Part shown: positions 41,590 to 57,412 of the stretch, in pieces | Position numbering within the stretch: position 1 is the stretch's first letter | Layout of the letters: every line of letters begins with the position of its first letter | Origin: Marivibrio halodurans | Lineage (GTDB): Bacteria > Pseudomonadota > Alphaproteobacteria > UBA8366 > Aestuariispiraceae | Assembly: GCF_017963645.1 (NCBI RefSeq) | Contig: NZ_JAGMWN010000007.1 | Coordinates: forward strand, 62,001-126,000 | Reading direction: 5' to 3' | DNA length: 64,000 nt | Made by a program: the position numbers and the translations under genes | The notes under the pieces: generated by a model | Database searches by the model: none | Seen by the model: the letters and a program-made list of their open reading frames with translations, nothing else | Told to the model about the DNA's origin: nothing

Positions 41590-42291
41590 TCAATCCTCGC
41601 CAAGGAGGTTGCCGCGCACCGTGATCAGATGGGCACGCATGGCGGCACGCGCGCGCTCCCCATCATGATCGCGGATGGCGGCGACCAGATCGCTGTGTTG
41701 CGTGTCATAGCGCGCCCGGGTCTCGGCGGTGACGCTGCGTTTCTTGAGCTGATACCAGGCCGGTTCGTCCCGCACAGCGTTTATCGCGAGGCAATAGTCG
41801 ATCAAGACCCCGTTTCGCGCCGCCTCGAAGACGGCGAGATGGAGCTTCGCGTCCCAATATTCGAATTCGGCAAGACCGCGCGCGGATAAGCTGTTCCGCA
41901 GTGCCTCGGAAAGCCGTGCGATTTCCTCCGCGTTGGCGCGGGTGGCGGCCAGGGCGGCGACCTGCGGTTCGATGATGAGGCGGACCTCCATCAGGTCGGC
42001 GGGGGAAGCCTCCCGCATGTGGCGGCCGGTCGCGAGACGACCGAGACCGGCGATCCCGGGGGCCGTCGCCTCGCGCACGAAGGTTCCCTGACCGACTCGC
42101 CGTTCCAGCAGCCCTTCGGCCGTCAGCCGGTCGAGTGCTTGGCGCAACGTGTTGCGCGCGACCCCGCATTCTTCCGCGAGCGCTCGTTCGGTCGGCAGTT
42201 GCGTGCCGGCGGGCCATTCCCCGCCATGCAGCTTGCCGAGCAGACCTTCATAGATGCCGGCGGCAGCGCGGCCCAGGACGATTTTATTCAT
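41590..42291 (-). CDS. GntR-family (FadR subfamily) regulator
   Basis: A 233-residue regulator. The winged helix is at residues 8-75 (IYEGLLGKLHGGEWPAGTQLPTERALAEECGVARNTLRQALDRLTAEGLLERRVGQGTFV), followed by an FCD helical effector domain (MEVRLIIEPQVAALAATRANAEEIARL...FEYWDAKLHLAVFEAARNGVL...HSDLVAAIRDHDGERARAAMRAHL) with the usual metal/carboxylate-binding Asp and His positions. It is divergent from the fumarylacetoacetase-family gene; four TGAACCA half-sites lie between them, so it most likely represses both itself and the long catabolic/transport series downstream. The inducer is probably an organic acid from that pathway. Confidence 0.9.
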   Translation of the reverse strand: MNKIVLGRAAAGIYEGLLGKLHGGEWPAGTQLPTERALAEECGVARNTLRQALDRLTAEGLLERRVGQGTFVREATAPGIAGLGRLATGRHMREASPADLMEVRLIIEPQVAALAATRANAEEIARLSEALRNSLSARGLAEFEYWDAKLHLAVFEAARNGVLIDYCLAINAVRDEPAWYQLKKRSVTAETRARYDTQHSDLVAAIRDHDGERARAAMRAHLITVRGNLLGED

Positions 42292-42558: not shown

Positions 42559-43470
42559 ATGCGCTATATCCTTTTCGAGCGGCTGGAAGGCCGTGATTCG
42601 GCGCCGGCGCTTGGCCGCATCGCGACGGGGGCCTCGGAGATTGAGGTCTTCGACCTGCCGGCGGTCGAGGCCGCGCGTGGCGTGCTGGCCCTGATCGATC
42701 GGGAGCATGCCGGCGACCCGGCGCCGCTTTCCGGGGAGCGGGTGATGATCGACGCGGTTCGTCCGCTCGCTCCGGTTCCGCGTCCGGCACGTAATATCTT
42801 CTGCGTCGGCAAGAACTATTTCGATCATGCGGAGGAGTTCGCGGGGAGCGGTTTCGATTCCAGCGCCGCCCAGGGCGCGGTGCCGAAGGCGCCGATCGTC
42901 TTCTCCAAATTGCCGGAATGCGTGACGCCCTTCGACGCGCCGATACCCGTGGACGCCGACATAACGACCGCGATCGACTATGAGGCGGAATTGGCCGTCA
43001 TCATCGGCAAGGGCGGGCGCGGTATCGCCAAGGCCGAGGCTCTCGGCCATGTCTGGGGCTATACCATCGTAAACGACGTGACGGCCCGCGATCTTCAGGG
43101 CAAGCACAGCCAATGGCTGATCGGCAAGTCGCAGGACGGCTTCTGCCCGATGGGCCCGGTCGCCTTGGCGGCCGATGCCTTCGACCTGGAGACGGCGCGT
43201 ATCCGGTGCTGGGTCAATGACGAGTTGCGTCAGGATGCGACCATGCAGCAACTCATTTTCGATATCCCGACGCTGATCGAGACCATCAGCCGGGGCATCA
43301 CCCTGATGCCGGGCGATGTGATCGCGACCGGCACCCCGGCCGGCGTGGGCATCGGGTTCAAGCCGCCGAAATATCTCGCCCCTGGGGATAGCGTGCGGAT
43401 CGAGGTGGACGGTATCGGTGTTCTGGAGAACCCGGTTGTCGCCTACCGCGCGGCCGAGAACGCGGCCTGA
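42559..43470 (+). CDS. fumarylacetoacetate hydrolase (FAH)-family protein
   Basis: A 303-residue FAH-fold enzyme. After a short N-terminal domain (MRYILFERLEGRDSAPALGRI) the catalytic domain starts at PRPARNIFCVGKNYFDHAEE. The metal-binding Glu/Asp residues are in TTAIDYEAELAVIIGKGG, and the family blocks VWGYTIVNDVTARDLQ, QWLIGKSQDGFCPMGPV and GDVIATGTPAGVGIGFKPPKYLAPGD are intact. Such enzymes cleave C-C bonds or hydrolyse/decarboxylate acylpyruvate and ring-opened products. First gene of the GntR-controlled series. Substrate is unknown; a 2-oxo or diketo acid is usual for the fold. Confidence 0.9.
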   Translation: MRYILFERLEGRDSAPALGRIATGASEIEVFDLPAVEAARGVLALIDREHAGDPAPLSGERVMIDAVRPLAPVPRPARNIFCVGKNYFDHAEEFAGSGFDSSAAQGAVPKAPIVFSKLPECVTPFDAPIPVDADITTAIDYEAELAVIIGKGGRGIAKAEALGHVWGYTIVNDVTARDLQGKHSQWLIGKSQDGFCPMGPVALAADAFDLETARIRCWVNDELRQDATMQQLIFDIPTLIETISRGITLMPGDVIATGTPAGVGIGFKPPKYLAPGDSVRIEVDGIGVLENPVVAYRAAENAA

Positions 43471-43514
43471 CGGATATCGTCGGGAAACCGGATCAAGGGA
43501 CGGGTTGGATCGAT

Positions 43515-44303
43515 ATGGCGCGTACGCACAAGATCAACGGCGTGACAGTGGAGATGGAAGGCGAGGGGCCGGCCGTCGTGATGCTTCACGGCCTGGGGGG
43601 CACCTCCAACACGTGGGTGCCGCAAGCTGCGGCTCTTTCGGGCCGGGCCCGGGTTATCCGCCCCGATTTGCCGGGTTCCGGCCGGTCGCCGCTCTCGGCG
43701 ATCGGGACGGACCTCTCGATCGACGCGCTCGCGGATTGCGTGCTCTCGATCATGGGGGTGTTGAATGCGCCGCGCGCCCATCTGGTTGGTCATTCCATGG
43801 GCACGGTCATTTGTCAGCGGATCGCGGAGGTCCGGCCGGAGGCGGTGGAGAGTCTCGCCCTCTTCGGGCCGATCCATGCTCCGCCCGACGCGGCGCGCAA
43901 GGGGTTGAAGGATCGCGCGGGGAAGGCGCGGCGCGAAGGCATGGCGGAGATATCGGATGCCATCGTGGCCGGCGGGACCGCCGCTTACAGCAAGACGGAC
44001 CGCCCGGCGGCCATCGCCTTCGTGCGGGAATCGGTGATGCGGCAGGACCCGGCGGGCTATGCCGCGACATGTGAGGCGTTGGCCGGGGCCAAGGGCGCCG
44101 ATCTGGCGCGCATCGACGTGCCGGTCCTGTTGCGCACGGGCGACGAGGACGCGATCGCCCCGCCGGCGGCGCAGCAGCGCATGGCGGATGCCTTTCCAGC
44201 GGCGGACGCGGCGGTCTTCTCCCGCTGCGGCCATTGGACGACGATCGAGTGCGCGGCCGAGTCGAGCCGGGCGTTGAGCGATTTCCTGGCACGAATGACA
44301 TGA
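43515..44303 (+). CDS. alpha/beta-fold hydrolase
   Basis: A 262-residue hydrolase. The oxyanion region VVMLHGLGGTSNTW, the nucleophile elbow LVGHSMGTVI with the Ser, the acid in RTGDEDAIAPP and the His in CGHWTTIE are all present, so a complete Ser-Asp-His triad is likely. Its size and HGLGG pattern resemble 3-oxoadipate enol-lactonase and other lactonase/ester hydrolases, and its position after an FAH-family enzyme fits a ring-cleavage or side-chain hydrolysis step. Substrate not determinable. It starts 44 bp after the FAH-family gene. Confidence 0.88.
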   Translation: MARTHKINGVTVEMEGEGPAVVMLHGLGGTSNTWVPQAAALSGRARVIRPDLPGSGRSPLSAIGTDLSIDALADCVLSIMGVLNAPRAHLVGHSMGTVICQRIAEVRPEAVESLALFGPIHAPPDAARKGLKDRAGKARREGMAEISDAIVAGGTAAYSKTDRPAAIAFVRESVMRQDPAGYAATCEALAGAKGADLARIDVPVLLRTGDEDAIAPPAAQQRMADAFPAADAAVFSRCGHWTTIECAAESSRALSDFLARMT

Positions 44304-44387
44304 CGGCCCGCGCGGCGGGCGCGGCAGCGGAAATTCGGGACGGCGCGCGGTTAAAATAAAGAGGCGCCGCCCGGTAGGGAGGAAAAC

Positions 44388-45671
44388 ATGGCGGACACGC
44401 TTTTCACCAACGTTCGGATTCTGGACGGAACCGGCGACCAGCCCTATCCGGGCGAGGTTCTCGTCCAAGGTGCGCGCATCAAGCAGGTAAGCCGTGGCGG
44501 ACGATCCGTCGGCGGCCATGCCCAGACGGTGATCGACGGCGCCGGTGCCACCCTGATGCCGGGGATGGTCGAGGCGCATTGCCACCTGTCCTGGAACAAC
44601 CAGCCGAGCCTGGACGCGATCCAGATGATGCCGACGGAGGAGCACACGCTCTTCACCGCCGACATGGCCGGGTTGCTGATCGACGCGGGCTTCACCTCCG
44701 CGGTCGGCGCGGCCTCGGCCAAGCCGCGCCTCGACGTGGTTATCCGCAACGCGATCAAATCAGGGCAGATCGCCGGGCCGCGCTACCTCGCCGGTAGTCA
44801 GGAAATCGCGACCGTCGGTGGCCTTGGCGACACGTCGCCGCCGCACCTCGACTTCCCGGAACTGTCCTTCGGCCATCTCGTCTCCGGCCCGGAGGAGATG
44901 CGCGCGGCCGTGCGCCAGTTCATCAAGTATGGCGTCGATCTCATCAAGTTGAACCTTTCCGGCGAGGAGATCGCCGGCGTCGGCGCGGAGGAAACCCCGA
45001 TGTCCGACGAGGAGGTCGCGATGGCAGTCTCCGAGGCGAAGCGCCGGGGCAAGCGGGTCGCCGCGCATGCGCGATCCTCCGAATCCGTCAAGATGTGCAT
45101 CCGCCATGGGATCGAACTGATCTATCATGCCTCCTTCGCCGACGAGGAGGCGCTCGACATGCTGGAGGCGGCGAAGGACAAGCATTTCGTCGCCCCCGGC
45201 CTCGCCTGGCTGATCAAGACGGCGACGGAGGCCGCCGACTACGGCGTCGATCCGAACGGTCCGATGGGCATGATGTACGCCCGAGAGCGCGATATCGCCA
45301 TCGAAACGATGAGAAAGATGCATAAGCGCGGTATCCGGGTCCTGCCGGGCGGCGATTATGGCTTCGCCTGGATCCCGCACGGCACCAATGCCCAGGATCT
45401 GGAATATCTCGTCGACAAGGTGGGGATGACGCCGATGGAGGCGATCCTGTCCACCACCAAGCATGGCGGCGCGATCATGGGCATGCCGGGCGAGCTGGGC
45501 CAGATCCGGGAAGGTTATCTGGCCGACCTGCTGCTGGTGGACGGCGACCCGCTTTCCAATATCCGGCTGCTTCAGGACAAGCGGCGCATCCTGGCGGTGA
45601 TGAAGGACGGCAGCTTCCACCGCGCGCCCCAGGCGTCCTCGCAGAGCCGCCAGACGCGCTGGGCCGGCTAA
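44388..45671 (+). CDS. amidohydrolase-superfamily enzyme
   Basis: A 427-residue metal-dependent hydrolase. The metal motif is PGMVEAHCHLSW (H-x-H, residues ~63-65); the bridging Lys is probably in DLIKLNLSGEE, metal His residues in RVAAHARSSES and LIYHASFAD, and the catalytic Asp in LPGGDYGFAW. The end has the small beta domain (EGYLADLLLVDGDPLSNIRLLQDKRRILAVMKDG). This is the imidazolonepropionase/prolidase-like group of amidohydrolases acting on amide or cyclic amide bonds. Start ATG has GGGAGGAAAAC before it. Third gene of the series; immediately precedes the Liv transporter. Confidence 0.9.
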   Translation: MADTLFTNVRILDGTGDQPYPGEVLVQGARIKQVSRGGRSVGGHAQTVIDGAGATLMPGMVEAHCHLSWNNQPSLDAIQMMPTEEHTLFTADMAGLLIDAGFTSAVGAASAKPRLDVVIRNAIKSGQIAGPRYLAGSQEIATVGGLGDTSPPHLDFPELSFGHLVSGPEEMRAAVRQFIKYGVDLIKLNLSGEEIAGVGAEETPMSDEEVAMAVSEAKRRGKRVAAHARSSESVKMCIRHGIELIYHASFADEEALDMLEAAKDKHFVAPGLAWLIKTATEAADYGVDPNGPMGMMYARERDIAIETMRKMHKRGIRVLPGGDYGFAWIPHGTNAQDLEYLVDKVGMTPMEAILSTTKHGGAIMGMPGELGQIREGYLADLLLVDGDPLSNIRLLQDKRRILAVMKDGSFHRAPQASSQSRQTRWAG

Positions 45672-45719
45672 AGAGGTCCGGTAACACGGGCGAAGCACGG
45701 GAGTCGGACCGGAGACGGC

Positions 45720-46613
45720 ATGAAGCTCTTCATCCTGACATTCATGAACGGATTGACGCTGGCGGCGCTTTATTTCCTGGTGGCCAGCGGCTTCACGCTC
45801 GTCTTCGGCCTGATGCGCAACGTCAATCTGGCGCATGGCTCGCTCTATCTGGCGGGCGCCTATATCGGCTATACGATCGCGGATGCGACGGGCAGTTGGT
45901 ATCTCGGCGTCGTGGCGGGCTTCGTTTCCATGGCGCTCGCCGGGGTGTTGCTGCAGATCCTGGTCTTCCAGCGGATGGAGGGACAGGACCTGCGCCAGAC
46001 GCTGGTGACGATCGGCATCTCGATCGTGCTCGCCGACCTGATGCTGGCGATCTGGTCGGGCACGACCTATCAGTTCTCGCCGCCGGAATGGCTCTTCGGC
46101 GCGACGGAACTGCCTTATATCCTTGGCTATCGCTCCAGCGGAGAGGCGGTCTATCTGAAATATCCCACCTATCGTATCGCGTTGCTGGTGGCGGCGATCG
46201 CGATCGGGGTGGCGCTCTGGCTTTTCCTTAACAAGACGCGGGTCGGCACGATGATCCGCGCCGGCGTCGACGATCGCGCGATGCTGGCGGCGACCGGCGT
46301 CAACGTTCATCTGATCTTCGTCGTCGTCTTCGCGCTCGGCGCGGGGCTCGCGGGGCTTGCCGGGGTGATCGGCGGCACGGCGCTTTCCATCGCGCCGGGC
46401 GAGGACGTGCGCTATCTGCTGGCTTCCCTCGTCGTCGTCATCGTCGGCGGCATGGGCAGCGTCACGGGCGCGGCCATCGGGGCCCTGCTGATCGGGTTGG
46501 CGGAGCAGTTCGGTCTCGTCTATTCGCCGACCTACGGCGTCGTCTACACCTTCCTGATCATGGTCGTGGCGCTCGCCGTCCGGCCGCAGGGCATCATGGG
46601 GAAACGGGCATGA
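45720..46613 (+). CDS. Liv-type ABC transporter permease (LivH-like)
   Basis: A 297-residue permease of the branched-chain amino acid/urea/aromatic-acid type with about eight transmembrane segments. Hallmarks: GLTLAALYFLVASGFTLVFGLMRNVNLAHGSLYLAGAYIG near the start, TRVGTMIRAGVDDRAMLAATGVNVHLIFVVVFALGAGLAGLAGVIGG (the ATPase-contact loop) and YLLASLVVVIVGGMGSVTGAAIGALLIG. It overlaps the second permease gene by ATGA. Liv-family systems import amino acids, amides, urea or aromatic acids; the adjacent hydrolases suggest an acyl or amide substrate. Confidence 0.93.
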   Translation: MKLFILTFMNGLTLAALYFLVASGFTLVFGLMRNVNLAHGSLYLAGAYIGYTIADATGSWYLGVVAGFVSMALAGVLLQILVFQRMEGQDLRQTLVTIGISIVLADLMLAIWSGTTYQFSPPEWLFGATELPYILGYRSSGEAVYLKYPTYRIALLVAAIAIGVALWLFLNKTRVGTMIRAGVDDRAMLAATGVNVHLIFVVVFALGAGLAGLAGVIGGTALSIAPGEDVRYLLASLVVVIVGGMGSVTGAAIGALLIGLAEQFGLVYSPTYGVVYTFLIMVVALAVRPQGIMGKRA

Positions 46614-47635
46614 GCGCGGCCGACGACACAAGCCGCGCGGGAGGACGCGAGGCGGCCGTGCCCCCGTCGGTGGTGGGCTATATCCTGCTCGGCACCTTCC
46701 TGCTGACCTATCCGGCCTATGCCAGCGATTTCTTCCTGTTCCAGGTCGCGGCCTATGCGATGATCCTGGGTATTATCGCGCTGTCGCTCACCTTCCTCGC
46801 CGGCTATGGCGGCATGGTCAGTCTGGCGCAGATGACGATCGCGGGGCTTGCCGGCTATCTAGTGGCGATCTTCGGGGCGACGTCGGCGACGGAATTCGGC
46901 CTCGGTTGGCCCTGGTGGCTGGTGGTGCCGCTGGCCATCGGTCTCGCGACGCTGGCCAGCGCGCTGATCGGCGCAATCTCGGTCCGGACCGAGGGCATCT
47001 ATACCATCATGATCACGCTGGCGATCGCGGTCGCTTTCTTCTACTTCACGCGCCAGAATTACGACCTCTTCAACGGTTTCAACGGCTTCGCGGGGATCGC
47101 GCCGCCGATGCTCTTCGGGGTCGATTGGCGCACCCCTCTGCCTTTCTATTATCTGACGCTCGGCGTTTCGGTCGCGGCCTATGTCTTCGTCCTCTACATA
47201 TCCCGCTCGACCTTCGGGCTCAGCCTCCAGGCGGTGCGGGACAATGCGCGCCGGATGGAGGCGCTGGGCTTCAACGTCACCGGCCATCGCATCTTTGCCT
47301 GGGTGATCGCGGGCGCGATCGCGGGCGTCGGTGGCGTGCTGGCCGTGTGGTTCAACGGGCGGATATCGCCGGGCACGATCTCGGTCGGGCCCGTCATCGA
47401 CATTCTGGTGATCGCGGTGATCGGCGGGCTGCGCCGCCCGATCGGCCCTTTCCTCGGCGCGATCGTCTTCGTGCTTTTGGAGAACTTCGCCATCGATCTG
47501 ATCGACCGGGAGCGGTTCAATACCGTGATCGGCTTGTCTTTCCTGGCGATCGTCCTGTTCTCGCCGGACGGTCTCCTCGGTTTGTGGGACCGGCTGAAGG
47601 GCCGTCTCGCCCAGACACGACCGCCGCTCTCGTGA
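46610..47635 (+). CDS. Liv-type ABC transporter permease (LivM-like)
   Basis: A 341-residue permease, partner of the preceding gene. Features: LGIIALSLTFLAGYGGMVSLAQMTIAGLAGYLVAIFG, SVRTEGIYTIMITLAIAVAFFYFTRQNYDLFNGFNGFAGI, STFGLSLQAVRDNARRMEALGFNVTGHRIFAWVIAGAIAGVGGVLAVWFNGRISPG and VIGGLRRPIGPFLGAIVFVLLENFAI, the standard LivM order. About nine hydrophobic segments. It ends 128 bp before the binding-protein gene. Confidence 0.93.
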   Translation: MSAADDTSRAGGREAAVPPSVVGYILLGTFLLTYPAYASDFFLFQVAAYAMILGIIALSLTFLAGYGGMVSLAQMTIAGLAGYLVAIFGATSATEFGLGWPWWLVVPLAIGLATLASALIGAISVRTEGIYTIMITLAIAVAFFYFTRQNYDLFNGFNGFAGIAPPMLFGVDWRTPLPFYYLTLGVSVAAYVFVLYISRSTFGLSLQAVRDNARRMEALGFNVTGHRIFAWVIAGAIAGVGGVLAVWFNGRISPGTISVGPVIDILVIAVIGGLRRPIGPFLGAIVFVLLENFAIDLIDRERFNTVIGLSFLAIVLFSPDGLLGLWDRLKGRLAQTRPPLS

Positions 47636-47763
47636 CAGGAGCGCCCCGCGAACGGGCGGCGGACAAAAAGAATGGGTGCTCGCGGCCGGGGATGGTCCCT
47701 GGCTGGCCAAGAGAAGAAAGCGGACGGCGCGAGGCCGGTCCGCGCAGAAGGGAGGAAGCAACC

Positions 47764-49011
47764 ATGCGGTTATTGAAACGCACGATGCTCGGGCTGACGC
47801 TCGCGGCGTCGGTGGGCATGACGGCGGGGCCGGCGGCAGCCCAGGACACGATCAAGATGGGGGCGCTCGCCACCCTGGAAGGCGCCTTCACGGTGATGGG
47901 CGAGGACGGCCTGCGGGGCGTGAAGCTCGCTCTGGAGGAAGTCGGCTACGAGGTCGGGGGCAAGAAGATCGAACTGATCGAGGGCTCCTCCGATGCGTCG
48001 CCGGACAGCGCCGTGCGCGCCGCGCGCAAGCTGGTCGAGCAGGATGGCGTGGAGGTCCTGATCGGCCCGCTCTCCGGCTCGGAAGGGCTGGCGGTCAAGG
48101 ACTATGCCAAGACGCAGCCGGACGTGACGTTCCTCAACGGCTCCTCGGCGGCGCAGGACACGACGCTGCGCGACCCGGCGGAGAACTTCTTCCGCTTCTC
48201 GACCGACGGCGCGCAGTGGATGGCCGGTCTGGGCGAATATGCCTATGAGGAGAAGGGCTATCGCAACGTCGTCGTCATCGCCGAGGATTATTCCTTCCCC
48301 TATACCCAGGTGCAGGGCTTCATGCTGCCCTTCTGCGAATTGGGCGGTAAGGTCGTCGACAAGCACTGGGTGCCGATCGGCAACAAGGACTATTCCTCGA
48401 TCATCGCGGCGCTTCCGTTCGACATCGATGCGATCTATGTCGCGCTGGGCGGTGCCGATGCGATCAACTTCCTGTCGCAGTACCAGCAGGCCGGCGGCGA
48501 AGCGCCGTTGATCGGCGGGTCGATCACGGTCGACCAAACGGTGCTGGGCTCCAAGGGGCAGCGCGCCGACTATGTCGCGGGCACGCCGTCCGCCGGGCCG
48601 ATCGCCGATAACTGGGACGATCCGCGTTGGCAGAAGTTCGTCGCGGCCTATAAGGAGCAGTTCCCGGACGGCTTCCCCTCGCCTTCGCTGTTCGCGCATG
48701 CCTATTACGTGAACACCAAGGCGGCGGTGTTGGCGCTTGAAGAGGTCGGCGGCGATCTGTCCGACGGCGGCGCGAAGTATCGCGAGGTGCTCTCGACCCT
48801 CGAATTCGAGACGCCGACCGGCATGGTCAAGCTCGACGAGAACCGCAACGCCATCGCCGACATCTTCCTGACGGAAGTCGCGAAGGGCGATGACGGGCTC
48901 TACAACAAGGTCGTGAAGGTCATCCACGACGTGAACCAGACGCTCGGTGTTCCGCGCGAGGAGTTCATGTCCTATGGCCCGGTCGGCCGCGACAATCCCG
49001 ATTGTTCGTAA
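47764..49011 (+). CDS. Liv-type ABC transporter solute-binding protein
   Basis: A 415-residue periplasmic receptor (Peripla_BP_6 family). ATG 47764 opens a Sec signal, MLGLTLAASVGMTAGPAAAQ, cut at AAAQ-D. The mature part: TIKMGALATLEGAFTVMGEDGLRGVKLALEE, VGGKKIELIEGSSDASPDSAVRAARKLVEQDGVEVLIGPLSGSEGLAVKDYAKTQPDVTFLNGSSAAQDTTLRDPAENFFRFSTDGAQWMAGL and FPYTQVQGFMLPFCELGGKVV. It shows the usual two-lobed order. The ligand is unknown; the enzymes encoded around it are the best clue. GGGAGGAAGCAACC precedes the start. Confidence 0.93.
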   Translation: MRLLKRTMLGLTLAASVGMTAGPAAAQDTIKMGALATLEGAFTVMGEDGLRGVKLALEEVGYEVGGKKIELIEGSSDASPDSAVRAARKLVEQDGVEVLIGPLSGSEGLAVKDYAKTQPDVTFLNGSSAAQDTTLRDPAENFFRFSTDGAQWMAGLGEYAYEEKGYRNVVVIAEDYSFPYTQVQGFMLPFCELGGKVVDKHWVPIGNKDYSSIIAALPFDIDAIYVALGGADAINFLSQYQQAGGEAPLIGGSITVDQTVLGSKGQRADYVAGTPSAGPIADNWDDPRWQKFVAAYKEQFPDGFPSPSLFAHAYYVNTKAAVLALEEVGGDLSDGGAKYREVLSTLEFETPTGMVKLDENRNAIADIFLTEVAKGDDGLYNKVVKVIHDVNQTLGVPREEFMSYGPVGRDNPDCS

Positions 49012-49039
49012 GCGCTAGACGGGTTTCGGGAGAAACGTG

Positions 49040-49867
49040 ATGGCGGTCGCCGAAGGTATGCCGCGGAGCAATGGCTCCGGCCCCCGGTCCGAAACGGCCC
49101 AACGGGTCGAACAGGCCGGCGCGGCCCACGCCCTCGATATCGAGGGCGTGGGGCGTACCTTCGGTGCCGTCGTCGCGCTCGCCGATGTGAGCTTCTCCGT
49201 CGGCGCGGGCGAACGGCGCGCGGTGCTCGGCGCCAACGGCGCGGGCAAGACGACGCTGTTCAACGCGATCACCGGGGATTTTCCGGCGACGTCCGGACGC
49301 ATCCGCTTCTTCGGGGAGGATGTGACCGATCTGCCGCCGCATGAGCGCATTCGGCGCGGTCTGCGGCGCACCTATCAGCATTCGCTTCTGTTCCGGGGTC
49401 TCACCATCCTGGACAATCTCTATCTCTCCTGCCGGGGCGTGACCCGGCGGCGCTATTCGCTGAAGCGGCCGGGTAAGGACGACCCGGCGCTACGCATGGC
49501 GAAGGAGTTGGCGCATACGGTCCGCCTGGACCATTTGGCGGATACGCCCGTCTCCGAACTCGCCTACGGTCAGCAGCGGCAGTTGGAGATCGGCATGGCG
49601 TTGTCCGGCGCGCCGCGCTTCATCCTGTTCGACGAGCCGGCGGCGGGTCTCTCCTCGGTCGAGCGGCGGGAACTTATCCAGATCCTCCAGGCCCTGCCGC
49701 GCCATATCGGCTATATCATCATCGAGCATGACCTGGACGTCGCCTTGCGCGTCGTCGATCGGGTGACGATCATGCACAACGGGCGCCTCTTCAAACATGG
49801 CAGCCCGGAGGAGATCGAGACCGATCCGGAGGTCCAGCGCATCTATCTCGGGGGCGGTCATGGCTGA
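49040..49867 (+). CDS. Liv-type ABC transporter ATPase (LivG-like)
   Basis: A 275-residue ATPase. ATG 49040 ([12 protein letters not shown]) or the adjacent GTG 49037 starts it; about 30 extra residues precede the domain. Walker [26 protein letters not shown]; the Q-loop region [26 protein letters not shown]; signature block [19 protein letters not shown], where the canonical LSGGQ is replaced by LAYGQQ as in LivG; Walker [14 protein letters not shown]; His in [11 protein letters not shown]. Its last 8 bases overlap the LivF-Tm-1 fusion gene, indicating coupled translation. Confidence 0.93.
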
Positions 49868-52169
49868 ACGCGGGGAGACGCGCGGCGCGCAACGCGGCAC
49901 CCGGCGCGAGACAGCGCCGGTTCTGGAGATTGGCGGCCTGACCGTTCATTACGGGCACGCGCCCGCGCTCCAGGGGGTGGATCTTACCCTCGATCACGGT
50001 GTGCTGGCGGTCGTCGGCCGCAACGGCATGGGCAAGACGACGACCTGCAACGCGGTGACGGGGCTGGTGCGTCCCTCGGCCGGATCGATCAAGTTCCATG
50101 GGCGCGAACTGGTCGGGATGTCGCCGAACCGGATCGCGCGGCTCGGTATCGGCTATGTGCCGCAGGGCCGGCGCGTCTGGCCGTCGCTCAGCGTGGACGA
50201 GCATCTGCGCCTCGCCCAGCGCGGCGGGCGGGACGCGGACTGGACCGTCGACCGGGTCTACGAGACCTTCCCGCGCCTGCATGAACGGCGGCGCAGCGGC
50301 GGCGGTCAGCTTTCCGGCGGCGAGCAGCAGATGCTCGCCATCGGGCGCGCGTTGCTCGGCAATCCGACCCTGTTGGTGATGGACGAGCCGACCGAGGGCC
50401 TCGCCCCCGTCATCGTCGAGCAGGTCGAGAACATGCTGCGGGATCTCGCGGCGGAGGGAGCCATCTCCGTCCTGTTGATCGAGCAGAATATCGGCGTCGC
50501 CCTGGATATCGCCGAGCGCGTCGGGGTCATGATCAACGGCCGCATCGCGCGCGACATGGCGGCGGAGGAACTGCGCGCCGACACCGCCCTACAACAGCGC
50601 CTGTTGGGCGTCGGCCGCCACGACGACGAGGCGGAGGACGCCGCCGACGACGACGCTGGGCAAGCGGACCGGGCGCCGGAGCCGGTCGTCTATCGCGTTC
50701 GGCGCGAAGCCGCGAACGAGGATGCGGGCCCCGTCCCTGGCGCCGGTCCTTCAGGCAGCCGGCGCGACGTCCCGACCCGCTGGTCGCAGGCGAACCCGCT
50801 CGCCCGCCGTGCGCGTGACGGGGACGGCGATGCGGCCTCTGGCGGTGACAGCCGCGAGGCCGCGCGCGATCTCAAGCGCGCCGCCCCGCCGATTCCCTTT
50901 ACCCGCGCCTATGAGGGCGCGGCCTATGTCGTCGGCACCTTCGACACCAAGGCGCGGGAATTGCGCTTCATCGCCCAGCGTCTTGAAGCGATGGGGCGGC
51001 CCGTCGTGACGGTCGACCTCAGCACGTCCGGCCGGCCGTCCACGGCCGATGTCGGACCGACGGAGGTCGCCTCCCATCATCCGGGCGGGGCGCATGCGGT
51101 CTTCACCGCCGACCGGGGCAGCGCGGTCTCCGCCATGGCCGTCGCGTTCGAGCGTTTCCTGCCCGGGCGCCGCGACCTGGCCGGCGTGATCTCGGCCGGC
51201 GGATCGGGCGGCACGGCCCTGGCCACGCCGGCGATGCAGCGTCTGCCGGTGGGCGTGCCGAAGGTCATGGTCTCGACCGTCGCGTCGGGCGACGTCTCCT
51301 CCTATGTCGGGCCGACCGACATCACCATGATGTATTCGGTGACGGACGTGCAGGGGTTGAACCGCATTTCCGAGCAGGTGCTGGCGAATGCCGCGCACGC
51401 GCTGGGCGGCATGATCGCCAATGCGGGGGAGGACGGTGTCCGCGGGCGCGGCGGCGCCGGGGAGAAGGCGCGGCCCGCCGTGGGCCTGTCGATGTTCGGC
51501 GTGACCACGCCTTGCGTGCAGCAGGCGCAGCGTCTGCTGGAGGATGAGTATGACTGCCTTGTCTTCCACGCGACCGGAACCGGCGGTCAGTCGATGGAGA
51601 AACTGGCGGAGAGCGGCATGCTCGCCGGGGTCATCGACGCCACGACGACGGAGATCGCGGACCTGCTGATGGGCGGCGTTTTCTCCGCGGGCGAGGGGCG
51701 GTTGGATGCCGTCGCGCGCTCCCGCGTGCCCTATGTGGGGTCATGCGGCGCGCTCGACATGGTGAACTGGGGCGCGCTCGATACGGTTCCCGAGCGGTTC
51801 AAGAACCGTACTCTCTACAAGCACAATCCGCAGGTGACGCTGATGCGCACCACGGCGGAGGAGAACGCGGCCATGGGCCGTTGGATCGCGGAGAAGCTCA
51901 ATCGCTGCGAGGGGCCGGTACGTTTCCTGATTCCGGAGGGTGGGGTCTCCCTGCTCGACGCGCCGGGCATGCCCTTCCACGATCCCGAGGCGGACGCCGC
52001 CCTCTTCAACGCGATCGAGGAGACGTTCCGCCCGACGGCGAATCGCCGGCTGATCCGGTTGAAGCACAATATCAACGACCCGGCCTTCTCGGAGGCGCTG
52101 GTCGAGCAATTCCGCGCGATCCAGGCCCCGGCCGGCGGCCGGGCGCTGGGCGCGCGGACGGGCTCCTGA
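49860..52169 (+). CDS. fusion of Liv-type ATPase (LivF-like) with a Tm-1-like (UPF0261) domain
   Basis: A 769-residue two-part protein. Residues ~20-252 are a LivF ATPase: Walker [10 protein letters not shown] (53-61), LSGGEQQML (151-159), [11 protein letters not shown] (173-183), LLIEQN (205-210). An acidic/polar linker (~253-350) leads to a full Tm-1-like ATP-binding domain (~355-755): [153 protein letters not shown]. The next gene encodes the TIM-barrel half of plant Tm-1. The fusion ties an importer ATPase to a second ATP-binding catalytic domain of unknown reaction. Confidence 0.92.
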
Positions 52170-52236
52170 CGGGGTGGTTCCTGGCGGGCGGGACCCGCGC
52201 GGGCAAGGACGACGAGGAAAGAGGGAGAGGCCGGAC

Positions 52237-53070
52237 ATGGCCAGATTGGAAAGACGCGAGATCCTGGACCGCTTCCGCACGATGATCCGCCGGGGCGAGC
52301 CAATCGTCGGCGGCGGCGCGGGCACGGGCCTGTCGGCCAAGTGCGAGGAGGCCGGCGGCATCGACCTGATCGTGATCTACAATTCCGGACGCTATCGCAT
52401 GGCGGGGCGCGGCTCGCTCGCGGGCCTGCTCGCCTACGGCAACGCGAACGAAATCGTGGTCGAGATGGCGCGCGAGGTCTTGCCGGTGGTCGAGAAGACG
52501 CCGGTCCTGGCGGGCGTCAACGGAACCGATCCCTTCATGCTGCGCGGACCGTTTCTGAAGCAACTGAAGGAGTTGGGCTTCGCCGGGGTGCAGAATTTCC
52601 CGACGGTCGGGCTGATCGACGGGACCTTCCGCGCGAACCTGGAGGAAACCGGCATGGGCTACGGCCTGGAGGTCGACATGATCCGGGCGGCGCACGATCT
52701 CGACATGCTGACCACGCCCTATGTCTTCAGCGAGGACGACGCCCGCGCGATGACCGAGGCCGGGGCCGATATCGTCGTCTGCCACATGGGGCTGACGACC
52801 GGCGGGGCCATCGGGGCGGAGACGGCGGTGACGCTCGACGATTGCGTCGCCTCCATCAACAGTTGGGCCAAGGCCGCGATGAAGGTGCGGCGCGACGTGA
52901 TCGTGCTGTGCCATGGCGGGCCGATCTCCATGCCCGAGGATGCGGAATATATCCTGAAACGCTGCCCCGATTGCCACGGCTTCTACGGGGCTAGCTCGAT
53001 GGAGCGCCTGCCGACCGAAAAGGCGCTTACCGAACAGACGCGCAAATTCAAGACGATCGGACGGCATTAA
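52237..53070 (+). CDS. TIM-barrel protein of the PEP-hydrolase-like / Tm-1 C-terminal family
   Basis: A 277-residue protein. Start [71 protein letters not shown] is the typical N-terminal of the 'phosphoenolpyruvate hydrolase family'/TIM-barrel signal transduction group; [81 protein letters not shown] and [17 protein letters not shown]...[14 protein letters not shown] complete it. In plants this barrel is fused behind the UPF0261 domain (ToMV resistance protein Tm-1); here the two are neighbours. AGAGGGAGAGG precedes the start. Function unknown. Confidence 0.9.
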
Positions 53071-53127
53071 CCCGTCCGGGCGCCGCGCGGCCGAGGTCCC
53101 GGCGCCCAAGACAGCAGGGAGGATACG

Positions 53128-55422
53128 ATGTCTGGTGCAGCGATCGGATGGACGGTTCTGGGGATCATCATCCTCGCCGTCGTCATCGTCGTGGGCGTAT
53201 ATCTGCTTCATTGGCTCTATCGCCGTTCCACTAAGGAGACCGCCTTCGTGCGCACCGGCTGGGGCGGGGAGAAGGTGGTCAAGGACGGCGGCGCCTTCGT
53301 GCTGCCGATTGTCCATGAAGTGACGCCCGTCAACATGAACACCCTGCGCCTGGAGATCCGGCGCGGCCAGGAAGCGGCCCTGATCACCAAGAACCGCATG
53401 CGGGTCGACGTGGTGGCGGAGTTCTATGTGCGCGTCGCCCAGAAGCGCGACGCGATCTCCGCCGCCGCCCAGACGCTGGGCCGGCGCACGATGCAACCGG
53501 ACGCGCTGAAGGAACTGGTCGAGGGTAAATTCGTCGATTCCCTGCGTTCCGTCGCCGCCGAGATGACGATGGAGGAACTGCACGAGCAGCGTGGCCAATT
53601 CGTCCGCCGGGTACAGGAATCGGTGGCCGAGATGCTCTCGCGCAACGGGTTGGAACTGGAAGCGGTCTCGCTCACCGGCATGGACCAGACCAACATGGAC
53701 TATTTCAACCCGTCGAACGCGTTCGACGCGGAAGGTTTGACCCGCCTGACCGAGGAGATCGAGCGGCGCAAGAAATCCCGCAACGACATCGAGCAGGACA
53801 CCATGATCGCCATCCGGAACAAGAATCTGGAGGCGGAGAAGATGGCCCTCGATATCGAGCGGGAGAGTGAATATGCCCGCCTCGACCAGGAACGCGAGAT
53901 CGAGGGCCGCCGCGCCGGTCAGCGCGCGGAGGTGAGCCGCGAGCGCGCGGAGCGCGAGCGCGAGGCCGAGGAGGCGCGCATCGCCGCCGAACTGGCGGTG
54001 GAGCGCGCCAAGATATCCCAGGCCCGCACGCTGGACGAGGAACGCATCACCCGCGAGCGCGAGACCCAGACTCTGGAGGTCTCCCGCCGGCGTGCCTTGG
54101 AGAAGGCCGAGACCGAGGCCCGCGAGGCGACGGAGCGCGAGCGCATCGCCACCGAGAAGACCCTGGAGGAGGAGCGCATCGCCAGCCAGGCCGAGACCGA
54201 GCGCCTGGAGGTCGAGCGCCGGAAGTCCGTCCAACTGGCCGAGGAGGAGCGCGCCATCGCGCTCGCCAAGAAGGCGCTGGAGAAGGCCAAGGTCGAGGCG
54301 GAGTCCGAGGAGCAGACCCTCATGGCGCTGTTGGAGGTGGAACGCGCCAAGATCAAGCGCGACCGCTTGATCGAGGAGGACCGCATCTCCCGCGAGAAGG
54401 CGCTTCAGGTGCTGGAAGTCGGCCGGCGCCAGGCGCTGGAGGAGGCAGAGATCCAGACCCGCGAGGAGGTCGAGCGCGCCCGTATCCAGAGCGAGCGCGG
54501 CCTGGACGAGGCCCGTATCCTCCAGCGCAAGGAACTGCGCAAGATGGAGATCGACCAGCAACTGGCCCTGGAGATCGCGGAGATCGACCGCGCGATCGAG
54601 GTCGCGGGCAAGACCAAGCAGCGCTCCGAGGCGCTGGTCGAGAGCGAGGGCGCCCGGGCCAAGGCGATCCAGGCGGAGGAGAAGACCTTCTCCGCGCGCG
54701 AGATGGAGATCGCGGAGCGCAAGAAGGCGATCGAGCTCATCCAGGCGGAACTGGCCGCGGAGCGCGACGGCATCAAGCTGCGCAAGGGCGCCGAGGCCGA
54801 GCGCATGGCCAGCCTGGAGCGGGCCGAGGCGCTGCGGGCCATGGCCGAGGGCGAGGCGGAATCGGAGAAGCTCCGCGCGCTCGCCGACAAGCTGCGCTAC
54901 GAGATCGATGCCGAGGGGCGCCGCCAGCTCAACGAGGCGCTCAACGTGCTGTCCGATCCGGCGCGCGGCTCGGAAATGCGCCTCAAGCTCATCGACAAGC
55001 TGGAGGGCATCATCCGCGAGAGTGCCAAGCCGCTGGAGCGGATCGAGGGCATCAAGATCCTGCAGGTCGACGGCCTGCTCGGCCATGGTGGCGGGTCCGG
55101 CGGAGGCTCGGGCGGCAATGGCGGAGGCGGCGATTCCGGCAATGGCGGCTTCGCCGACAATGTCGTGAACTCCGCCCTGCGCTACCGCGCGCAAGCGCCG
55201 CTGATCGACAATCTGCTGTCCGAGATCGGCATCAGCGGCGGCGATATCGGCCGGCTGACCAATGTCCTGAACCACGCCAAGGCCGTGAATCCCCAGGCCG
55301 TTAACCCCCAGGCCGTTAACCCCAAGGCCGATGACGCCGGGAGCGGGGATGACGGCACCAAGGGCGAAGGCGGTACCAAGGGGGGCAAGAGCGCCAAGGG
55401 CGACCGCGAGGGGGCGGGCTGA
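53128..55422 (+). CDS. flotillin-like SPFH-domain protein with long coiled coil
   Basis: A 764-residue membrane-anchored scaffold protein. One N-terminal transmembrane helix (IGWTVLGIIILAVVIVVGVYLL, ~5-28) precedes an SPFH/band 7 domain (~35-210: AFVRTGWGGEKVVKDGGAFVLPIVHEVTPVNMNTLRLEI). Residues ~210-610 form a very long, highly charged Glu/Arg/Ala coiled coil, followed by a Gly-rich loop (GGGSGGGSGGNGGGGDSG), a helical segment and a lysine/glycine-rich tail with three AVNPQ repeats. The layout matches YqiK/FloT-type flotillins. It would organise membrane microdomains. It lies in the same-strand series with the importer and starts 57 bp after the TIM-barrel gene, but a separate promoter is not excluded. 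Confidence 0.88.
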   Translation: MSGAAIGWTVLGIIILAVVIVVGVYLLHWLYRRSTKETAFVRTGWGGEKVVKDGGAFVLPIVHEVTPVNMNTLRLEIRRGQEAALITKNRMRVDVVAEFYVRVAQKRDAISAAAQTLGRRTMQPDALKELVEGKFVDSLRSVAAEMTMEELHEQRGQFVRRVQESVAEMLSRNGLELEAVSLTGMDQTNMDYFNPSNAFDAEGLTRLTEEIERRKKSRNDIEQDTMIAIRNKNLEAEKMALDIERESEYARLDQEREIEGRRAGQRAEVSRERAEREREAEEARIAAELAVERAKISQARTLDEERITRERETQTLEVSRRRALEKAETEAREATERERIATEKTLEEERIASQAETERLEVERRKSVQLAEEERAIALAKKALEKAKVEAESEEQTLMALLEVERAKIKRDRLIEEDRISREKALQVLEVGRRQALEEAEIQTREEVERARIQSERGLDEARILQRKELRKMEIDQQLALEIAEIDRAIEVAGKTKQRSEALVESEGARAKAIQAEEKTFSAREMEIAERKKAIELIQAELAAERDGIKLRKGAEAERMASLERAEALRAMAEGEAESEKLRALADKLRYEIDAEGRRQLNEALNVLSDPARGSEMRLKLIDKLEGIIRESAKPLERIEGIKILQVDGLLGHGGGSGGGSGGNGGGGDSGNGGFADNVVNSALRYRAQAPLIDNLLSEIGISGGDIGRLTNVLNHAKAVNPQAVNPQAVNPKADDAGSGDDGTKGEGGTKGGKSAKGDREGAG
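55282..55326 (+). repeat. three 15-bp tandem repeats in the flotillin-like gene
   Basis: Three in-frame 15-bp units encode AVNPQ-AVNPQ-AVNPK. Units two and three are almost identical at the DNA level and differ from the first at two third-codon positions, suggesting recent duplication in the disordered C-terminal tail. Confidence 0.9.
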
Positions 55423-55428
55423 TCCGTC

Positions 55429-55869
55429 ATGGTGAAGGTCTATACCTCCAGCGTCATCGGCGCGCCGGCCGACCGGGTCTGGCGCGTCGTGCGCGACTTC
55501 AACGGGTTGCCGGACTGGCACCCGGCGATCGCGGAAAGCCGGATCGAGAACGGCGTCCCTTCCGATCGCGTGGGCTGTATCCGCAACTTCACGCTGAAGG
55601 ACGGCGGACGCATCCGGGAGCAGCTTCTGGCGCTCTCGGATTTCGACTACAGCTTCCGCTATTCGATCCTGGAATCGCCGATGGGCGTGACGGACTATAT
55701 CGCCGATTTCCGGCTGCTTCCGGTGACCGACGGGGATCAATGCTTCGCCGAATGGACGGCGGAATTCGATTGCGCCCCGGAGCGTGAGGGCGAACTCGCG
55801 GAACTGGTCGGCCAGGGCGTCTTCCAGGGTGGGTTCGATGCGTTGAAGCAGCGCTTCGGCGCGGCCTGA
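55429..55869 (+). CDS. SRPBCC-family protein
   Basis: A 146-residue helix-grip protein (polyketide-cyclase/PYR-like): MVKVYTSSVIGAPADRVWRVVRDFNGLPDWHPAIAESRIENGVPSDRVGCIRNFTLKDGGRIREQLLALSDFDYSFRYSILESPMGVTDYIADFRLLPV. These folds bind hydrophobic ligands in a deep cavity; some are cyclases or hydrolases. It starts 6 bp after the flotillin-like gene and is paralogous to the N-terminal domain of the next gene (DFN...HPAIA, VGC-R-F, GFDA/E-A-R), so the pair arose by tandem duplication. Ligand unknown. Confidence 0.88.
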   Translation: MVKVYTSSVIGAPADRVWRVVRDFNGLPDWHPAIAESRIENGVPSDRVGCIRNFTLKDGGRIREQLLALSDFDYSFRYSILESPMGVTDYIADFRLLPVTDGDQCFAEWTAEFDCAPEREGELAELVGQGVFQGGFDALKQRFGAA

Positions 55870-55882
55870 GGGACGCCCGGCG

Positions 55883-57412
55883 ATGGTGAAGCTCGTGCGA
55901 AGCACGGTGATCGATGCGCCGGTCGATGCGGTCTGGGCGGCGATCCGTGATTTCAACAGCCACAAGTTCTGGCATCCCGCCATCGCCGACAGCGTGATCG
56001 AGGATGGGCGCGCCGGGGACGAGGTGGGGTGCGTGCGGCGCTTCATCCTCTCCGACGGGGAGAGCGTGCTGCGCGAGCGGCTGCTCGCCCTCGACGACCG
56101 GGAGCGGAGCTTCACCTATTGCCTGACCGATGCGCCCATCCCGCTCGACGGCTATGTCGCGACGGTGCGGCTACGGCCGGTGAGCGATGGGGACCGCACC
56201 TTCTGGGACTGGCGCAGCGAGTTCACCTGTCCGCCGTCGCGCCGCGCGGAATTGGTCGAACTGGTCGGCGAGGGCGTCTATCAAGCCGGTTTCGAGGCGA
56301 TCCGGGAGCGTTTGTCCCGAACGCCTTCCGCCCGCGCCGGCGCGGCGCCGCGATCCGCGCGGGCGGAGCCTTCCTCCCCGACATCTGCCGCGCGCGAGCC
56401 GGCGGCCCCGGCGGTTCGGCGCGCGGGCGGGGCGATCGAAAGCTGGGGTATGGTCATGACCGCCCATGGCGGGCCGGAGGTGCTGGAGCGCCAAACGGTC
56501 GAGGTCCCGGCGCCCGGCCCTGGCGAGGTGCGGTTGCGTCATACGGCGATCGGTCTCAATTTCATCGATGTCTATTGTCGCACGGGCTATTTCCGGCTGG
56601 TCGATCCGCCGGGCATCCTGGGCATGGAGGCGGCGGGCGTCGTCACCGATGTCGGCCCCGGCGTGCATGGCCTGGGGGAGGGGGATCGGGTCGGCTATGC
56701 CTGCCCGCCGCCGGGCGCCTATGCCGAACGGCGGACCATGGCGGCCGATCTGCTGGTGCCGCTGCCGGACGATATCCCGGACGAGACGGCCGCCGCCGGG
56801 TTGCTGAAGGGCATGACGGCGGCCTTCCTGCTGCACGATGTGCACCGGGTGACAGAGGGGGACACGATCCTCGTCCACGCGGCCGCGGGCGGGGTGGGCA
56901 CGCTGCTGTGCCAATGGGGGCGGCGGCTGGGCGCCACCGTGATCGGCACGGCGGGCGGTCCGGAGAAGACCCGCCGCGCGCGGGAGAACGGCTGCGCCTT
57001 CCCGATCGACACGACCCGCCAGGATTTCGTCGCGGCGGTCCGGGACATCACCGACGGGCGCGGCTGCGACGTGGTTTATGACGCGGTCGGGCGCGATACG
57101 ATCGAGAAGAGCTTCGAGGCGCTGGCCGTGCGCGGCCATCTGGTAAGCTTCGGTCAGGCGTCGGGGCCGCTGCCGCTTCTCGACATGGCGGGCTATGCCG
57201 GCAAGTCGGCTTGCCTGTCGCGTCCGAACTATGCCCATTACACCGGCACGGCGGCCGCGGTCCGGCGTCTCAGCGACCGGCTGTTCGAAGGGTTGCGCGC
57301 CGGGTGGCTTCGGGTCGAGGCGGGGCAGAGCTTCCCACTGGCCCGGGTGGCGGATGCGCACCGCGCGCTTGAATCGCGCCAAACCACCGGCTCCACGATC
57401 CTGACCCTCTGA
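55883..57412 (+). CDS. fusion of SRPBCC domain and zinc-free quinone oxidoreductase (QOR/MDR)
   Basis: A 509-residue fusion. Residues 1-146 are a second SRPBCC domain (VKLVRSTVIDAPVDAVWAAIRDFNSHKFWHPAIADSVIEDGRAGDEVGCVRRF). A Ser/Ala/Pro-rich linker (~147-187) leads to an MDR-family oxidoreductase (~188-509): MTAHGGPEVLERQTVEVPAPGPGEVRLRHTAIGLNFIDVYCRTGYF, GILGMEAAGVV, and the NADPH Rossmann block TEGDTILVHAAAGGVGTLLCQWGRRLGATVIGTAGG. Structural-zinc Cys residues are absent, as in QOR. The two domains do not occur together commonly; the SRPBCC part could capture a lipophilic enone or quinone for reduction. It ends the long same-strand series. Confidence 0.9.
   Translation: MVKLVRSTVIDAPVDAVWAAIRDFNSHKFWHPAIADSVIEDGRAGDEVGCVRRFILSDGESVLRERLLALDDRERSFTYCLTDAPIPLDGYVATVRLRPVSDGDRTFWDWRSEFTCPPSRRAELVELVGEGVYQAGFEAIRERLSRTPSARAGAAPRSARAEPSSPTSAAREPAAPAVRRAGGAIESWGMVMTAHGGPEVLERQTVEVPAPGPGEVRLRHTAIGLNFIDVYCRTGYFRLVDPPGILGMEAAGVVTDVGPGVHGLGEGDRVGYACPPPGAYAERRTMAADLLVPLPDDIPDETAAAGLLKGMTAAFLLHDVHRVTEGDTILVHAAAGGVGTLLCQWGRRLGATVIGTAGGPEKTRRARENGCAFPIDTTRQDFVAAVRDITDGRGCDVVYDAVGRDTIEKSFEALAVRGHLVSFGQASGPLPLLDMAGYAGKSACLSRPNYAHYTGTAAAVRRLSDRLFEGLRAGWLRVEAGQSFPLARVADAHRALESRQTTGSTILTL

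Follow-up and report, generated by a model that had tools for sequence, protein, structure and literature searches.

Bacterial breakdown of phenolic compounds can be opened by an ATP-dependent phosphorylation, as with the aromatic dikinases HpeHI, AcvAB, and CreHI (PMC12167813). For the aromatic ketone acetovanillone, a single-component kinase, MarK, is credited with starting the breakdown (a citing sentence in PMC13101465). The UPF0261 fold is found in the tomato protein Tm-1, where it shares one polypeptide with a TIM-barrel partner (PMC5028733). Liv-type importers for branched-chain compounds or urea (HAAT) comprise a binding protein, two permeases, and two ATPases, while the bacterial flotillin FloT has SPFH and Flot domains. 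Relatives of several of these proteins come together in an operon of Marivibrio halodurans (assembly GCF_017963645.1, contig NZ_JAGMWN010000007.1). It consists of twelve same-strand genes at 42559-57412 (+) of a 64,000-nucleotide stretch with a GC fraction of 0.67 (G000:C20:62001-126000; hereafter the window, meaning the whole stretch analyzed). As described below, its gene set belongs to one real and conserved system with a core made up of an importer ATPase fused to a probable kinase, a flotillin, and a pair of SRPBCC units, around which the enzyme cassettes are exchangeable.

The genes run in the order FAH-family hydrolase/lyase, alpha/beta hydrolase, amidohydrolase, LivH, LivM, binding protein, LivG, LivF-UPF0261, PF09370 TIM barrel, flotillin, SRPBCC1, and SRPBCC2 fused to a medium-chain dehydrogenase/reductase (MDR) (Table 1). 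The gaps between them span -8 to 131 bases, and the ratio of nonsynonymous to synonymous substitution rates (dN/dS), taken against a locus in a metagenome-assembled genome (L030), is 0.18-0.38 across the 12 genes; these are thus conserved coding genes and not chance open reading frames. A sequence-only reading had proposed eleven or more same-strand genes controlled by a GntR regulator. Every gene it named is in place with a strong Pfam match, though its list left out SRPBCC1, bringing the total to twelve. The GntR/FCD gene is also present, divergent and upstream, but beyond the span that had been assigned to the system. Genome-wide, there is one UPF0261 match and, at E ≤ 1e-40, one flotillin, both inside the operon. 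Scans for promoters (2 sites versus a shuffle mean of 2.0) and terminators (6 versus 8.3) gave no excess, and the limits of the transcription unit therefore rest on gene spacing alone.

How widely is this arrangement kept? Neighborhoods were compared by tblastn with 39 reference proteins, and the UPF0261 part was matched in 12 of the 59 genomes searched, its own included. Among 13 other genomes of the same family, UPF0261 is present in 8 and absent in 5, the latter including the sole genome of the same genus. All eight family carriers (L020-L027) have the whole gene set, with L020 ending at a contig end before LivM and LivH. Their order differs from that of the window: importer, fusion, PF09370, flotillin, SRPBCC1, and SRPBCC2-reductase, then FAH, alpha/beta hydrolase, and amidohydrolase. 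The window's own order is seen in a Variovorax paradoxus megaplasmid (L015) and in L030. In total, the LivF-UPF0261 fusion, a flotillin, and two SRPBCC units occur together in 42 places, the window included (38 plus 4 added loci). A flotillin stands beside UPF0261 at 38 loci, again with the window, and LivF and UPF0261 share one frame in 38 of 38. UPF0261 placements without a flotillin are fused in 0 of 58 cases; an unfused LivF lies directly upstream in 17 of these, and no LivF lies within 1 kb in the other 41.

The same picture emerges from a sounder sample of 387 genomes drawn evenly from the class, with 90% completeness requested. The UPF0261 query matched in 52 of them (E ≤ 1e-40), in 21 as part of a frame of at least 765 residues. 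All 21 of these fused genomes were inspected, and in every one a flotillin adjoins the fusion; 15 are of type A and 5 of type B, as defined below, and 1 is cut by a contig end. Two of the type A loci, L148 and L156, have no detected FAH gene, L148 being near a contig end. Seven of the 31 other UPF0261-bearing genomes were inspected (G043, G070, G159, G207, G291, G329, and G412), and these have no flotillin at UPF0261.

The 38 flotillin-bearing loci divide into 23 of type A, where two or more hydrolase-cassette genes are present, and 15 of type B, with a molybdenum cassette. In type A, to which the window belongs, the cassette is made up of FAH, alpha/beta hydrolase, and amidohydrolase, and SRPBCC2 has a reductase fused to it. 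Type B is found on a Shinella plasmid (L016), a Yoonia plasmid (L017), and in a number of other genomes. There the importer, fusion, PF09370, flotillin, and SRPBCC pair recur, followed by CoxM, CoxS, MoCoBD_1, MoCoBD_2, MoxR, and VWA. Its molybdenum hydroxylase and other hydrolases replace the three hydrolase genes. Downstream, 10 type B loci were surveyed, where counts are lower bounds because some fetched pieces start mid-cluster. Relatives of Yoonia proteins were found there as follows: of an SMP-30/isochorismatase fusion in 10 of 10, of Amidohydro_2 in 7, and of a metallo-beta-lactamase-fold protein in 6. A flavodoxin-fold (Flavodoxin_2) gene is present in 7 of the 10, and the Yoonia locus has an FAH gene too. 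A third group, type C, comprises unfused clusters without a flotillin. Even within type A the hydrolase cassette moves, standing at the front in the window, Variovorax, and L030 and at the end in the eight genomes of the same family. Being a movable cassette that type B replaces, the three hydrolase genes are not part of the core, and since the same core serves two different cassettes, substrate and mechanism are separable. What stays with the fusion is the flotillin, the two SRPBCC units, and, with rare exceptions, PF09370. The sequence-only reading was therefore right that this is one conserved uptake-and-breakdown system. It had named a neighborhood comparison as its own check, and that comparison upholds it for the flotillin and SRPBCC genes, which accompany the fusion in every fused locus examined, but not for the hydrolase genes. 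It had also likened the gene set to no known pathway; among the titles and abstract openings turned up by searches of the open-licence literature, none describes the system.

A tree built from 89 UPF0261 domains has a branch (support 99/96) that sets apart all 38 flotillin-bearing rows together with a single further locus, L044. Types A and B each form one side of a branch when those two groups only are counted. The association of fusion and flotillin is thus mainly one event kept by descent, through gene-order reshuffling and enzyme replacement. The window's UPF0261 groups with those of Variovorax, L030, L146, L147, L148, and L157 (99/96), apart from the loci of its own family. Together with the same-genus genome that lacks UPF0261, this position suggests that the operon was acquired horizontally. 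A simple insertion between dsbD and thrB/rnhA was considered and set aside, since no clean empty site was found among the eight genomes asked: thrB and dsbD lie about 1.2 kb apart, in the other relative orientation, in G003, and on different contigs or far apart in the other seven.

The constant element of the system is the fusion, a single open frame in which a linker of about 100 residues joins LivF to UPF0261. The operon encodes a complete Liv-type set (one Peripla_BP_6 protein, two BPD_transp_2 permeases, and two ABC [ATP-binding cassette] ATPases), which departs from described HAAT importers in that LivF carries UPF0261. LivH, the binding protein, and LivF, the three tested, fall below the urea and branched-chain equivalog cut-offs. 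The UPF0261 part scores 201.5 and 311.9 bits for its two domains (Pfam cut-offs, 27). Its AlphaFold model, with a mean predicted local distance difference test (pLDDT) score of 89.6, superimposes on tomato Tm-1 with Z 46.3 over 384 residues at 2.5 Å (VIA range, Z 45.7-46.3, root mean square deviation 2.5-3.1 Å, 384-399 residues). Tm-1 itself is a plant protein with antiviral activity and has no transporter, flotillin, or SRPBCC attached. A second solved relative, Saro_1862 of Novosphingobium aromaticivorans (PDB 9mpy), is a UPF0261 protein crystallized with acetovanillone, and the family profile matches nearly its whole length (E 2.2e-94, positions 3-391 of 392). The window model aligns to it with Z 33.6 over 390 residues at 7.4 Å, a deviation that may reflect another domain arrangement. 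MarK is probably Saro_1862. This homology, the acetovanillone ligand, and the link to MarK lead us to read the window's UPF0261 domain as a probable small-molecule kinase, and the ligand of its relative points, by analogy, to a hydroxylated, aromatic-like substrate that would be phosphorylated first. Outside the family, in comparisons that covered mainly the N-terminal half, this half resembles many alpha/beta proteins at Z of about 9-10, with nothing decisive among them. Could the UPF0261-PF09370 pair instead be the acetovanillone kinase AcvAB/HpeHI? This was dropped. Although those enzymes likewise open breakdown by ATP-dependent phosphorylation, HpeHI is an ATP-grasp and swivel-domain dikinase (PMC12167813), not a UPF0261 protein, and neither ATP-grasp nor swivel (phosphoenolpyruvate [PEP]-utilizing) domains were found by Pfam in the 12 operon proteins (E ≤ 0.001).

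The partner protein is a clear PF09370 member (448.6 bits, cut-off 33.8, over all 267 profile positions) and is 69% identical to the solved structure 2p10. Its fold matches many TIM barrels, such as methylisocitrate lyase by Foldseek and indole-glycerol-phosphate synthase by VIA, and no catalytic mechanism can be read from them. UPF0261 and PF09370 are reported to have coevolved, with UPF0261 present in 491 of 504 genomes holding the TIM-barrel domain (PMC5028733). In the class sample, 52 genomes have UPF0261 (E ≤ 1e-40) and 39 have PF09370 (E ≤ 1e-60), although the two thresholds differ; these counts, like the single-component MarK, would fit UPF0261 acting without PF09370 in some genomes. 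PF09370 also occurs as the N-terminal domain of a sigma-54 activator (L035:3729-5672, checked with Pfam), and relatives of the activator gene lie upstream of 11 of the 22 type A and 9 of the 12 type C clusters scored. This fusion suggests that PF09370 recognizes a pathway compound. A further gene, on the opposite strand, is conserved in 11 type A loci (L152:16755-17885 is one example). It lies some 7 kb ahead of UPF0261, and its weak PF09370 match stays below the cut-off (26.8 versus 33.8 bits).

The two SRPBCC units are related to each other, SRPBCC1 being 51% identical to the SRPBCC part of the SRPBCC2 fusion. In type A the MDR reductase forms one protein with SRPBCC2, and in type B the molybdenum hydroxylase genes come directly after SRPBCC2. 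This pattern suggests that SRPBCC2 hands either a substrate or quinone to the redox enzyme that the locus happens to have. The nearest solved relatives of the MDR part are 2-haloacrylate reductase and quinone oxidoreductases; it has the MDR superfamily domains but falls below the cut-off for NADPH:quinone reductase PRK10754 (273.5 versus 348 bits). Type B shares CoxM, CoxS, a molybdenum (Mo) subunit, MoxR, and VWA beside an SRPBCC gene with the clusters for aerobic CO dehydrogenase (coxMSLDEFG). It differs in that two genes, divided where MoCoBD_1 meets MoCoBD_2, encode the Mo-subunit (checked with Pfam in L168 and seen also in L016, L017, and others); they score 118.5 and 182.4 bits against a CO dehydrogenase cut-off of 991. 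Further differences are SRPBCC proteins without a CoxG family match and the attached importer and flotillin.

The flotillin has Band_7 (64.5 bits, cut-off 23.6) followed by Flot (122.6 bits, cut-off 27). It scores 57 bits against the 700 required for the FloT equivalog NF058507, and differs from FloT in its 377-residue coil and its place in a catabolic operon. Measured between two fixed anchors, the coil is 198-242 residues in 28 other flotillins (20 of them taken as 2.8-kb pieces), 220-440 in the 23 of type A, and 520-792 in 16 of type B, here including L182; four loci were left out. Coils in the fused systems are thus mostly the longer ones. Divided by 11, the coil length leaves a remainder of 0 or 3 in 66 of 67 flotillins; 16 of the 17 distinct lengths follow this rule, and the exception is one of the other flotillins, with 224 residues (4 modulo 11). 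Among moduli 3-19, only 11 concentrates the lengths so, with 94% of distinct lengths in two classes versus 18% expected. It seems, then, that the coil grows or shrinks by whole units of 11 residues. The rule holds in the other flotillins too and is a general property. Flotillins assemble into cages, and if those considered here do so, coil length would set the height of the wall.

From these parts a tentative mechanism can be assembled, to which we give a little less than an even chance: the operon would encode an import-and-phosphorylate catabolic system in which LivF-UPF0261 is an importer ATPase carrying the substrate kinase. A hydroxylated compound, aromatic or enolic, would be captured by the binding protein and imported through the permeases. 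At the inner face of the importer, UPF0261 would phosphorylate a hydroxyl of the substrate with ATP and so trap it, much as acetovanillone breakdown reportedly starts with the kinase MarK. The PF09370 partner would act on or sense the phosphorylated compound. The SRPBCC pair would then bind or cyclize a lipophilic intermediate and deliver it to its redox partner (in type A the MDR reductase fused to SRPBCC2, in type B the molybdenum hydroxylase), after which the FAH, alpha/beta hydrolase, and amidohydrolase would cut the skeleton down to central metabolites. GntR would control the operon, and the flotillin would gather importer and enzymes at one membrane site, much as the earlier reading had supposed in proposing membrane-domain organization; the initial phosphorylation is absent from that proposal. 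One further speculation, which we regard as quite improbable, is that flotillin oligomers cage a group-translocation-like ABC importer. They would form a vault around the importer-kinase patch, its wall height set in 11-residue coil steps, and the compound would be taken up, phosphorylated, and handed to SRPBCC carriers and interchangeable enzymes within a single enclosed space: a scaffold-built catabolic microcompartment with no protein shell. The consequences, should the mechanism hold, are 3-fold. (i) In an ABC importer, a covalent fusion would tie phosphorylation to uptake, a coupling of which the sugar phosphotransferase system is otherwise the typical example. (ii) Bacterial flotillins would gain a concrete metabolic job. 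(iii) The UPF0261-PF09370 pair, present in plants as Tm-1, would gain a testable biochemical function.

A number of observations weigh against this mechanism. The window's UPF0261 is only about 30-37% identical to Saro_1862, and no match in the class sample exceeds 40% identity, so that no group of orthologs can be drawn. The equation of Saro_1862 with MarK is itself inferred, and MarK is a free protein described as single-component, whereas the window's domain is fused to an ABC ATPase and paired with PF09370. UPF0261-PF09370 pairs also accompany sugar-type importers and Gfo/Idh/MocA genes. The substrate could therefore be other than aromatic, and "aromatic" is the weakest part of the model. 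On a Thermomicrobium roseum plasmid (L019), PEP/pyruvate-binding and PEP-utilizing genes stand beside an importer-UPF0261-PF09370 set; by annotation alone they could encode an HpeHI-like dikinase, in which case UPF0261 would have another role there. Nor is the pair indispensable. In two type A loci (L166 and L167, from G469 and G528) the fetched stretch shows no PF09370 gene separating UPF0261 from flotillin. At L182:7644-9701 the UPF0261 that is joined to LivF has diverged strongly (27% identity across 125 residues), and no PF09370 was detected. L182, where a long flotillin and two SRPBCC genes are followed, with no Cox genes detected, by a metallo-beta-lactamase-fold gene, is possibly a degenerate or repurposed relative. 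(In L157, PF09370 lies elsewhere within the cluster.) In five of the 23 flotillins of type A the coil, at 220 residues, is no longer than usual, so a long coil is not required for type A. The 38-locus count comes from a biased sample, 20 fetched regions having been picked for holding a flotillin, and because the 38 loci largely descend from a single origin, they do not count as independent events. Finally, L044 lies inside the flotillin clade with neither fusion nor flotillin. Its cluster is a mosaic, with LivH, LivM, and binding protein nearest type A and LivG and LivF more like those of unfused clusters, and it looks recombinant.

What else could such an operon be? Regulatory domains occur on other ABC ATPases, and the LivF-UPF0261 fusion resembles them. 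UPF0261 and PF09370 might accordingly be a sensing pair that adjusts transport or transcription, leaving breakdown to the FAH, alpha/beta hydrolase, and amidohydrolase alone. The sigma-54 activators with an N-terminal PF09370 speak for this, as does the domain's name, "TIM-barrel signal transduction" (PMC5028733). We nevertheless consider it unlikely, given a UPF0261 protein crystallized with acetovanillone from an organism whose acetovanillone breakdown reportedly opens with a single-component kinase, and given that a GntR or AraC regulator of its own is found at many clusters (among type A clusters other than the window, 10 of 22, where a GntR relative lies nearby on the opposite strand, and 14 of 15 of type B). 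Then there is the sequence-only proposal, in which a lipophilic acyl/amide or cyclic compound is imported and cut step by step by the three hydrolases, with no phosphorylation. It can draw on their expected catalytic-type motifs and on the metallo-beta-lactamase-fold, amidohydrolase, and (in Yoonia) FAH genes of type B, but it rests on the exchangeable part of the system, while UPF0261, the constant part, and PF09370 are left without a role. This scheme seems improbable to us; the compound itself may still be of that class.

Two further explanations concern the membrane side. CoxG binds quinone, and a CoxG-like SRPBCC pair could shuttle quinone or some other lipid between the redox enzyme and a membrane patch ordered by flotillin, making electron transfer to the membrane the core and import an accessory. 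The attachment of SRPBCC2 to a quinone-oxidoreductase-like MDR in type A, its place ahead of the CoxM/CoxS/Mo-subunit, MoxR, and VWA genes in type B, and the Flavodoxin_2 gene of 7 of the 10 extended type B loci would all suit such a role. Yet Pfam finds only Polyketide_cyc2 and Polyketide_cyc, and no CoxG family, in SRPBCC1 or SRPBCC2 (E ≤ 0.001), and the SRPBCC1 match covers residues 1-143 of 146, so the protein ends right after the domain and has no membrane tail. The MDR part, moreover, has a close relative in 2-haloacrylate reductase, an enzyme whose substrates are soluble. The chances of this explanation are, in our estimate, low. Somewhat unlikely, too, is an ordinary catabolic island with the flotillin as a passenger lacking any scaffold role and LivF-UPF0261 as a neutral fusion from one ancestor. 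The single clade of fused, flotillin-bearing systems is what this would predict, and loci such as L028, L031, and L039 have the Liv-UPF0261-PF09370-SRPBCC core without flotillin or fusion; the five ordinary coils of type A add to this. Against it, fusion and flotillin have been kept together despite gene-order rearrangement and cassette replacement, the coil changes by 11-residue steps and is longest in the fused systems, and the flotillin has a dN/dS of 0.33 (versus L030). The import-and-phosphorylate mechanism is the one we prefer, on the tentative terms given above.

Table 1. Features of the operon and its divergent regulator, in window coordinates, with Pfam E values and motifs
Feature	Coordinates	Strand	Evidence
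GntR/FCD-family regulator, divergent from operon, upstream	41590..42291	-	GntR 5.5e-21, FCD 5.4e-21
FAH-family hydrolase/lyase	42559..43470	+	PF01557 4.4e-67; motifs DYEAELAV, NDVTARD
Alpha/beta hydrolase	43515..44303	+	PF00561 1.3e-27; GHSMG nucleophile-type motif, CGHW His
Amidohydrolase	44388..45671	+	PF01979 4.9e-31; HxH motif
LivH-type permease	45720..46613	+	PF02653 5.1e-34
LivM-type permease	46610..47635	+	PF02653 1.1e-36
Periplasmic substrate-binding protein (Peripla_BP_6)	47764..49011	+	PF13458 3.6e-57; hydrophobic signal-like N-terminus, start Met present
LivG-type ABC ATPase	49037..49867	+	PF00005 6.6e-29; Walker A, signature-type, Walker B motifs
LivF-type ABC ATPase + UPF0261 (Tm-1-like) N and C domains, proposed kinase	49860..52169	+	ABC_tran 1.7e-27, UPF0261 N 1.4e-59, UPF0261 C 2.3e-93
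PF09370 TIM barrel ("PEP hydrolase-like"), UPF0261 partner	52237..53070	+	PF09370 8.4e-135
Flotillin	53128..55422	+	Band_7 1.7e-17, Flot 1.3e-35; N-terminal hydrophobic segment, SPFH, 377-residue coil, Flot domain
SRPBCC1, 146 aa	55429..55869	+	PF10604 6.9e-27
SRPBCC2 fused to MDR (quinone-oxidoreductase-like) reductase	55883..57412	+	PF10604 1.5e-20, ADH_zinc_N 2.1e-20, ADH_N 2.9e-15

The three hydrolases are placed at the level of their superfamilies. The FAH protein belongs to the FAH superfamily by Pfam and lies below the cut-offs of the NCBIfam equivalogs of the HpaG and 4-hydroxyphenylacetate FAH type (at best 153.2 bits versus 276.4, for HpaG); its two motifs we take to form the metal site. 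The alpha/beta hydrolase is PcaD-like but under the TIGR02427 (3-oxoadipate enol-lactonase PcaD) cut-off, at 147.5 versus 255.85 bits, and the amidohydrolase has Xaa-Pro dipeptidase as its best NCBIfam match, also below cut-off (225.9 versus 500 bits).

On the operon strand, 130 bases past the last operon gene, lies a GNAT acetyltransferase gene (57543-58028); in the clusters compared, no gene at this position is conspicuously conserved. Downstream of it come minus-strand housekeeping genes: rnhA (read from the sequence), a Pfam APH kinase read as thrB, and LytB (ispH). At the other end, a LysE-type exporter gene (40842-41453) adjoins the GntR regulator on the same strand as the regulator.

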